Source: Olsenella porci (GTDB taxonomy: Bacteria; Actinomycetota; Coriobacteriia; Coriobacteriales; Atopobiaceae). From it: a stretch of 64,000 nt of DNA. Position numbers and translations under genes: made by a program. Below the pieces are notes generated by a model. It was not told the DNA's origin, did not search any database, and saw nothing but the letters and a program-made list of their open reading frames with translations. This document shows, piece by piece, positions 1 to 18,459 of the stretch; position 1 is the first letter of the stretch; each line of letters starts with the position of its first letter. The stretch covers positions 1-64,000 of the forward strand of contig NZ_VUNC01000007.1 of assembly GCF_009695875.1 (NCBI RefSeq), written 5' to 3'.

Positions 1-102
1 GGACAGGGCCTCGCCGGCAGTGGTCGCCGATTCCGGCGCCCCGCGGTGACGGGACTGGCGAATGTACGTTGGTGCGGATGGGGGCGGTTCGCTGTCTAGT
101 CT

Positions 103-612
103 GGTGAAATCTATCTTGACTTCAACAACGCCCTGCGCCACGCCGACTCCGGGGCGGGCACCGCCTGCCTGCACGTGGCGGTCGACGACAGGAGCAGGGT
201 GGCCTACGCCGAGCTGCTCGGCGACGAGCGCAAGGAGACCTGCGTCGCGTTCATGGGGCGCGCCCGGGACTTCTACCGGGGCCTCGGCGTCGAGGTCGAG
301 CGCGTGATGACCGACAACGGGCCGGGGTACCGCTCTCGGCTGTTCAACGAGTGGCTCGCGGCGTCCGGCATCGCGCACAGGTACACCAGGCCCTACAGCC
401 CCTGGCAGAACGGGAAGGTGGAGCGAATGAACAGGACGCTCGCGCAGGAGTGGCAGTACGCGCGCGCCTACGCGAGCGAGGGGGAGAGGGCTGCCGCCCT
501 CTCCCCCTTCATCGACCGCTACAATTGGGAGAGGCCCCACAGCGCCTGCGGCGGCCTCCCGCCGATGTCACGCATCGTCGGTGTAAACAACGTCATGGCA
601 CACAACACTTAG
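103..612 (+). pseudogene. IS481-type transposase remnant, catalytic domain only
   Basis: The frame opens after an in-frame stop at 100-102 and runs to TAG at 610-612. It encodes most of an rve/DDE integrase domain. Candidate catalytic residues are Asp in IYLDFNN (codon 121-123), Asp in MTDNGPGY and Glu in GKVERMNRT, followed by the family-typical C-terminus with RPHSACGGLPP and NNV. IS481 transposases normally carry an N-terminal helix-turn-helix region before this domain. It is missing here, and nothing in the first 100 bases resembles it in any forward frame, so I call a 5'-truncated copy. A GTG at 175 could start a 145-residue product, but that would lose the first Asp. The stop codon lies inside the first unit of a 41-bp repeat array, so the element probably inserted next to or into that array. 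Confidence 0.8.
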
Positions 613-772
613 CGCCCCTAGGCCTCGTGCGCATTTTCGCCGCGCACTTCACATGAGGACTAGGAGGATTAAGCATTTGGCGCTGAAATCCCCACGGGGG
701 CTAGCGACGCTAAGCATCAGGTTCCAAAAACCGCATGAGGGCTAGCGGGGTTAAGCATTGCACCGCGGAATC
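605..772. repeat. 41-bp repeat array A (1 inverted + 3 forward units)
   Basis: Three forward units follow head-to-tail at 650-690, 691-731 and 732-772, each exactly 41 bp. Each has a core like CGCATGAGGGCTAGC, then about 4 bases, then TTAAGCAT or CTAAGCAT, about 10 variable bases, and an end in AATC or AAAC. One unit in the opposite orientation lies at about 606-638 and overlaps the stop codon of the transposase remnant. Related arrays occur at 7636-8072 and 18293-18459. There is no open frame of note inside. Confidence 0.85.
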
Positions 773-7635: not shown

Positions 7636-8072
7636 TGCTTAGGAATCTGGGGCCTTGTGAGGGTTATTGCTGACACGCGCTTAAGGAATCTGGTGGGTGC
7701 ACGGATTCTGGGGCGTATAACACGTCCGTGCCCCGTGGAGGCTAAGAATCTGGCATCGAAATCCGTGCGAACGCCGGCGGGGCTAAGCAGCGGATGGCGC
7801 CCAAGCACGCACGCGCCGGGATGGCTAAGCATGCCTTCCTGAATCCGCGCGGGTGGGGGGCGATGCTTAGCCTTCCTAGCTCCCATGCTGATTGTGGGGC
7901 GGGATGCTTAGCGTTGCTCGGACTCTTGCGGATTTTTGGGTCCAATGCTTAGGCGTGCTAGCGCTCGTGCGGGTTGGGAGGCGGAAATCGCGCATGAGGG
8001 CTAGGGATGTTAAGCAAACTGGGGCCCAATCCGAATGAGGGCTAGGGCGGTTAAGCACGTCGTGGCAGTAAC
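7636..8072. repeat. 41-bp repeat array B (about 10 units, mixed orientation)
   Basis: From left to right: two degenerate inverted-like units (7636-7721, sharing GCTTAGGAATCTGG or GCTTAAGGAATCTGG); forward units at 7723-7763, 7764-7804 and 7806-7845; inverted units at 7863-7903, 7904-7944 and 7945-7985; and forward units at 7991-8031 and 8032-8072. Most are exactly 41 bp. The inverted units start ATGCTTAGC or ATGCTTAGG and carry CTAGC about 5 bases later. The forward units at the right end show the core best (CGCATGAGGGCTAGG, TTAAGCA, then AATC). The array lies between decayed genes and the gltX terminator. Confidence 0.85.
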
Positions 8073-16059: not shown

Positions 16060-16178
16060 CTCGTCAAGAGGCGTCCCAGTGACGCAAAGGGTGGAGGGAC
16101 CGAGCCCGGTGAAGCCCCGGCAACCAGCAGCGATGCATGGTGCCAATTCTCGGCAGGCCGCAAGGCTTGGAAGACGGG
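16060..16178 (+). ncRNA. SAM-I (S-box) riboswitch
   Basis: The leader of metK shows S-box landmarks in order: P1 strand CTCGTC with AAGAG, GGTGGAGGGAC, GCCCGGTGAAGCCC, CGGCAACC, a loop with GATGC, ATGGTGCCAATTC, and the closing P1 strand GACGGG. This class binds S-adenosylmethionine and, when bound, favours the terminator that follows. Control of metK by its own product is standard for the class. Confidence 0.93.
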
Positions 16179-16198
16179 GGAGCTAGAGTGCAGTCACG

Positions 16199-18292: not shown

Positions 18293-18459
18293 TGCTTAGG
18301 CTCCCTAGCCCTCTTGGGGTTTGGGGCCTCGCCTGCTTAGCGGCGCTAGGCCTCATGGGGATTCGCGGCGAAAAACTCGCACGAGGGCTAGCGGTGCTAA
18401 GCATCACGAACCGGAATCGACACGAGGCTTAGCGCGGCTAAGCAGGCGGGTCCATAGGG
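18293..18459. repeat. 41-bp repeat array C (2 inverted + 2 forward units)
   Basis: Inverted units at 18293-18333 and 18334-18374 begin TGCTTAGG and TGCTTAGC and contain CTAGCCCTC or CTAGGCCTCAT. Forward units lie at 18378-18418 (CGCACGAGGGCTAGC, GCTAAGCAT, ending AATC) and 18419-18459 (CACGAGGCTTAGC, GGCTAAGCA). The period is 41 bp on both sides of the orientation switch. The array lies between a tRNA terminator and the gdhA promoter region. Confidence 0.85.

Follow-up and report, generated by a model that had tools for sequence, protein, structure and literature searches.

Mirrored, helix-phased arrays of 41-bp units in Olsenella porci and a sister genus: putative chromosomal binding-site arrays

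The intergenic DNA of Olsenella porci carries, dispersed over the whole genome, mirrored arrays of asymmetric units set at a pitch of 41 bp. Arrays of the same geometry occur in a sister genus, with cores that differ between lineages even at shared chromosomal positions, with half-arrays set apart in steps of 10.45 bp, and with a bias towards the space beyond the 3' ends of genes. We consider it probable that these arrays are chromosomal binding platforms, cooperative and helically phased, for a predicted DNA-binding protein that would co-evolve with its sites. The analysis started from array A, at the beginning of a contig stretch of 64,000 nucleotides (hereafter the window), and was extended to the window's own genome (G000; 2.36 Mb, 99% complete) and to its relatives.

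Array A and its family in Olsenella porci

An earlier note on this DNA had described three consecutive units of exactly 41 bp preceded by a unit in the opposite orientation; all are present, the latter on the minus strand (Table 1), and the 41-bp spacing persists across the inversion. The core said to be common to the three units needs a correction, the first half of unit 2 being divergent (CCCACGGGGGCTAG). Core pairs of the form GGSCTAG-N6-TAAGCR, exactly 41 bp apart, have three matches in the window; 100 dinucleotide-preserving shuffles gave none. Tandem Repeats Finder, at a score of at least 40, does not report array A, because only ~16-20 of the 41 positions are conserved.

An IS481-like element, inserted at 607/608 and bearing inverted ends TGTTGTGTGCCA on both sides, leaves the minus half incomplete in the window. 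The other end of the element lies at C12:~157214-157937, at the end of contig C12 (L207, C12:156000-157937), next to a second minus unit of array A (C12:157167-157213); subtracting the element and one CTTAGC copy brings this unit back to 41 bp from the first. With the flanks joined in this way the array reads minus, minus, plus, plus, plus at 41-bp pitch, with spacings of 41, ~58-59 (tail to tail over the dyad), 41 and 41. The insertion is incidental to the array, and probably explains why the contig starts at window position 1.

Table 1. Array features of the window (PWM, position-weight matrix; R1, sequence model)
Feature	Positions	Strand	Details
IS481-like element, right part (rve/rve_3 transposase fragment)	1..607	+	Pfam rve_3 7e-21; window starts inside the element
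Target-site duplication of the IS481-like element, CTTAGC (6 bp)	608..613		also supplies the transposase stop codon
Array A, innermost minus unit	606..632	-	GCGCACGAGGCCTAGGGGCGCTAAG...; tail cut by the IS insertion; PWM 25.5 bits, R1 22.4 bits
Array A, dyad centre (between minus half and plus half)	633..649		CTAG to CTAG 41 bp, TAAG to TAAG ~59 bp
Array A, unit 1	650..690	+	CACATGAGGACTAGGAGGATTAAGCATTTGGCGCTGAAATC; PWM 34.4 bits
Array A, unit 2	691..731	+	CCCACGGGGGCTAGCGACGCTAAGCATCAGGTTCCAAAAAC; PWM 33.2 bits
Array A, unit 3	732..772	+	CGCATGAGGGCTAGCGGGGTTAAGCATTGCACCGCGGAATC; PWM 37.2 bits; R1 36.9 bits, E 7e-9
Type II array	7636..7831		units 7650-, 7692-, 7734+, 7775+, 7817+; core CCGTGCGGGCACCGG-N5-YTAAGCA; 41/42-bp pitch
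Type I array	7864..8057		units 7878-, 7919-, 7960-, 8002+, 8043+; 61-bp junction to type II array
Type I array	18293..18444		units 18307-, 18348-, 18389+, 18430+

Array A is one of three array loci in the window, the others being a composite of type I and type II arrays and a further type I array (Table 1). The earlier note expected many intergenic arrays of this period in which the core is conserved and the spacer varies, and this was borne out: BLAST, a position-weight matrix and model R1 all point to about 33 arrays and ~160 units in G000, whose mirrored arrays number about 37 by another count, and of 79 adjacent same-strand spacings 65 measure 41 bp, eight 42 bp and six 40 bp. Nearly all of these arrays have their minus units on the left and their plus units on the right, and the 41-bp pitch runs through the dyad: at 20 of the 21 centres the minus/plus switch measures 40-42 bp. 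TAAGCR pairs at array pitch are found in 84 places, against one for the reversed control. The type I consensus is rAAyC CrCAyGAGGsCTAG n6 TAAGCA, after which comes a spacer of ~10 bp that is not conserved; units carry ~40 bits relative to local composition and are ~72% alike.

A type II subfamily, built on another core (CCGTGCGGGCACCGG n5 YTAAGCA), forms mirrored arrays of its own with the geometry and pitch of type I. Where the two types adjoin (window 7636-8057; C10:135536-135597; C1:584779-584873; C14:54816-54910), the junction comes in two lengths only, 61 bp and 94 bp, each seen twice. Unit score drops with distance from the dyad, and a variant in which GAGGYCGGGGA replaces GAGGSCTAG is outermost in 14 of 17 cases, compared with 44 of 130 ordinary units (Fisher p=0.0003). 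Across the arrays of G000, homologous unit positions show a slight excess only, contributed by a few innermost units, and one pair of arrays is 79% similar. At L076, part of an array (C9:271010-271215; 271704-271745) is duplicated at a distance of ~530 bp, and the GC-rich tail GCGCCAGGCGGCTAGGCGCGGAATCCGTGCGGGCGTCGCGCC is identical in both.

All arrays are intergenic, as judged with a home-made gene caller, and are placed beyond the 3' ends of genes, away from promoters. In G000 the flanking genes are convergent at 12 arrays, tandem at 20 and divergent at one; pooled over four species and compared with the remaining gaps of 100 bp or more, gaps between convergent genes are over-represented (p=1.6e-5) and those between divergent genes under-represented (p=4e-4). 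Arrays are bordered by ordinary genes of metabolism, regulation and housekeeping, and no recurrent neighbour gene, whether a candidate binder or a member of a transposase or integrase family, stands beside 92 arrays from four species. The window also holds a SAM riboswitch at 16074-16180 (+; Rfam RF00162, 49.5 bits). Regular spacing of arrays along the chromosome was not seen, their distribution being not significantly different from random, and there is therefore no sign of a domain ruler.

Sister-genus arrays, phase and turnover

The scan of relatives proposed in the earlier note gave a divided answer: with model R1 the type I core was found in G000 only, among 140 genomes of the family, whereas TAAGCR plus pitch recurs in a sister genus, whose arrays were revealed by anchoring on these two features rather than on the type I core. 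A core-pattern scan of genome and viral contig collections returned no match for the exact core, in collections from which G000 itself is possibly absent. In the sister genus, TAAGCR pairs at pitch are in large excess over the reversed control (310 in G099, 127 in G106, 92 in G089, 55 in G084, 52 in G103, and others), range from near none to ~310 per genome and are nearly equal on both strands; the strand, unit and phase statistics for these species count exact TAAGCR matches, degenerate units being uncounted. The layout is that of G000, with a 41- or 42-bp pitch, a TAAGCR tail and species-specific cores, among them TGCCAyAACCCCG in G084, TGCAACnACCCC in G086 (42 bp), GCAACrrCCgC in G089 and CCGGAyGGGCCGCG in G099. 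In G112 the tail is CTAAC instead of TAAGCR. No arrays were detected in some sister species, such as G087, G096 and G097.

Several side observations belong here. Identical CTAAC-tail units occur in two species (G112:C66:45593-45680 and G090:C3:327026-327113), a possible recent transfer. A different, nearly identical 41-bp tandem repeat ending in TAAGCG lies in another genus of the family (G060:C121:4083-4170). A motif, GGCGAGAAGAACC / GGTTCTTCTCGCC, recurs in spacers and beside arrays of G084, G086, G089 and G099 (e.g. L159, L156, L183); in places it is an inverted repeat, and it could be a REP of the RAYTs found in many sister species.

The sister-genus arrays also show a regularity at their centres. 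The gap between the innermost TAAGC tails of the two half-arrays spans 58-204 bp, with values that include 59, 70, 80, 91, 101, 111, 122, 133, 143 and 153, and the best period in a scan from 6 to 20 bp is 10.45 bp (R=0.918, n=58 arrays), a fit reached by 0 of 500 jittered controls. The sample draws on four species of the sister genus and on single loci from three others, with gaps read off the sister-species search listings, and each of the four species alone gives p<=0.004; in G000 nearly all centres fall in the shortest class, 59-60 bp. This quantisation therefore places both halves of an array on the same face of the helix. Missing or degenerate units add ~41 bp (3.9 turns), by which the phase is kept, not created. 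The quantisation is strong indirect evidence for a putative protein complex that would span the dyad. It also lends independent support to the helical phasing that the earlier note had deduced from the 41 bp alone. The companion claim, that the arrays are not a product of slippage, fares less evenly: the phase is indeed quantised, but among adjacent units of G089, 14% have 80% or more of the spacer in common, and units there have therefore duplicated in tandem.

How do arrays come and go? Between two genes that we take, from their translations, to be prs and pth, arrays are present in G084 and G089 and a variant array in G112; in most other g33 species the gap is short or empty. Arrays have therefore been gained or lost. 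The upstream gene retains its intrinsic terminator hairpin in all aligned species, array or none, and the array sits beyond this hairpin. The same gene neighbourhoods can also hold different cores (G084 L155 and G086 L183; G084 L162 and G089 L204), cores at shared loci matching the species and not the locus. Either the sites evolved in place under selection by a changing binder, or new arrays arose at favoured spots, two courses that are not fully separable; some shared positions may reflect separate insertions into one favoured spot and not ancestral sites. Whole arrays can occasionally be copied, as one G084 pair (C1:501/C4:4.4) shows 92% identity along 263 bp at separate loci, with similarity on the left running ~80 bp past the outer unit; a mobile element would do likewise.

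A putative protein platform and its rivals

A whole-turn pitch (41/42 bp) and in-phase half-sites (10.45 bp, R 0.92) are the marks of a cooperative phased operator, and both are found here. From these sequence patterns we infer a bound protein, cooperativity between its copies, and co-evolution of protein and sites. The unit would be an asymmetric bipartite site of ~31 bp, made of RAAYC, a 14-bp core (CRCAYGAGGSCTAG in G000), ~6 bp and TAAGCR, and would probably touch two DNA-binding domains of one protein. A pitch of four helical turns (41-42 bp) would align the bound proteins on one face, where they could stack, and two such stacks may extend outward from the dyad, mutually in phase; being held in phase, they would either make contact over a short loop of DNA or make up a single continuous complex. 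The gene for the binder would lie elsewhere in the genome, and in each species the specificity of the binder and its 50-300 sites would have changed together. As the platforms lie beyond gene 3' ends, away from promoters, their likeliest role would be architectural, such as local bridging, wrapping or insulation of DNA, and not promoter regulation; this part of the proposal is speculative.

A serious rival to the platform, one we nevertheless judge unlikely, is that the arrays are MITE-like non-autonomous mobile elements, in which TAAGCR tails are the outward tips of tandem transposase end-sites (Tn7- or Mu-like) and phasing serves the synapsis of a short element. Their presence or absence at the same locus between species, a copy number varying from near none to ~310 TAAGCR pairs per genome, and the near-copies at different places in G084 (92%) and G000 (79%) all fit such an element, and phased ends have a precedent in the IESs of Paramecium, short excised elements whose ends are helically phased (PMC3408717). 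However, in 27 arrays no target-site duplication at a consistent offset rises above shuffled pairs; the outermost units, the would-be active ends, are the weakest or are variant; the 92 arrays of four species lack a recurring transposase or integrase family beside them; and the G084 near-copy extends past its outer unit on one side. Far less probable, to our minds, are bidirectional transcription terminators, roadblocks or insulators between neighbouring genes. Placement beyond 3' ends and convergent enrichment would suit them, as would a mirror symmetry serving both strands, but the prs-pth terminator hairpin is kept with or without an array, which lies past it; the unit contains no terminator-like hairpin; and 47 of 86 array gaps separate tandem genes.

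REP/BIME repeats spread by a RAYT transposase share with the arrays an extragenic, dispersed, mirrored and species-specific character and a constant tag joined to a variable core, and the IS inside array A recalls the insertions that REPs often carry (PMC1525189). The units, however, are not palindromic (7 of 8 fold no better than shuffles), and Y1_Tnp genes (RAYT, PF01797) number 0 in G000 and G084, which are array-rich and both 99% complete, against 4-6 in array-poor G083, G090 and G097. Two array-rich genomes without a RAYT largely refute this family, to which we give almost no credence. The same near-dismissal applies to an RNA element, a CRISPR-like array or functionless simple tandem duplication: the tandem layout, the variable spacers and the recently duplicated neighbours in G089 are set against mixed orientations, the lack of a uniform repeat sequence and phase across the dyad. 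Rfam gives no match at the arrays and no Watson-Crick covariation was found inside the unit, which argues against an RNA family; a CRISPR array would consist of near-identical direct repeats with cas, and these units are only ~72% alike, stand in both orientations and lie among ordinary genes.

Relation to known systems and wider meaning

We know of no repeat family that fits the arrays, and no published description of this repeat class was found in the open-access literature. The multi-site ends of transposons such as Tn7 (TnsB) and Mu (MuA) consist of tandem asymmetric sites, inverted at the other end, on which a cooperative complex forms; several tandem asymmetric sites facing an inverted set, and a predicted cooperative complex, are features shared by the arrays. 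In contrast to those ends, the arrays have no internal cargo, no nearby transposase gene and no detected target duplication, and their outer sites are the weakest. Plasmid iterons and partition sites offer tandem sites in helical phase that serve one cooperative protein, putative in our case, but the arrays exist in tens of copies over the chromosome, are mirrored and have species-specific cores. Enterobacterial BIME/RIB elements, which are REP arrays bound by IHF and gyrase (PMC2817692), are likewise extragenic, dispersed, mirrored, located at the 3' ends of transcription units and protein-binding, a property only predicted for the arrays; REP units, however, are hairpin-forming palindromes tied to RAYT transposases, whereas the arrays consist of asymmetric duplex sites at 41-42 bp pitch and two array-rich genomes have no RAYT. 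REPIN/RAYT systems (PMC3116915) resemble the arrays in maintaining a population of short repeats per genome, with a species-specific core, a near-constant short tag, and persistence combined with turnover; the arrays differ in lacking a Y1 transposase in G000 and G084, in having almost no identical copies, and in their mirrored tandem layout of fixed pitch.

Dispersed extragenic repeats are in general already known; the arrays are a new class of them, consisting of helix-phased, mirrored, putative binding sites. It is possible, and we suggest it tentatively, that one family of bacteria has a chromosomal system in which a fast-evolving putative binder and its 50-300 sites were rewired in each species, with the geometry (mirrored stacks, four-turn pitch, phased dyad) held fixed, and that the arrays serve as phase-locked stations for bridging or wrapping DNA. 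The 10.45-bp steps of the central gap make protein-DNA geometry readable from genome sequence alone. The sister species form a natural series of one architecture with different recognition sequences, in which the co-evolution of a binder and its dozens to hundreds of sites could be traced directly. Should the binder be identified, it would prove to be either a new protein of chromosome architecture or a novel kind of transposase whose dispersed ends have been domesticated.
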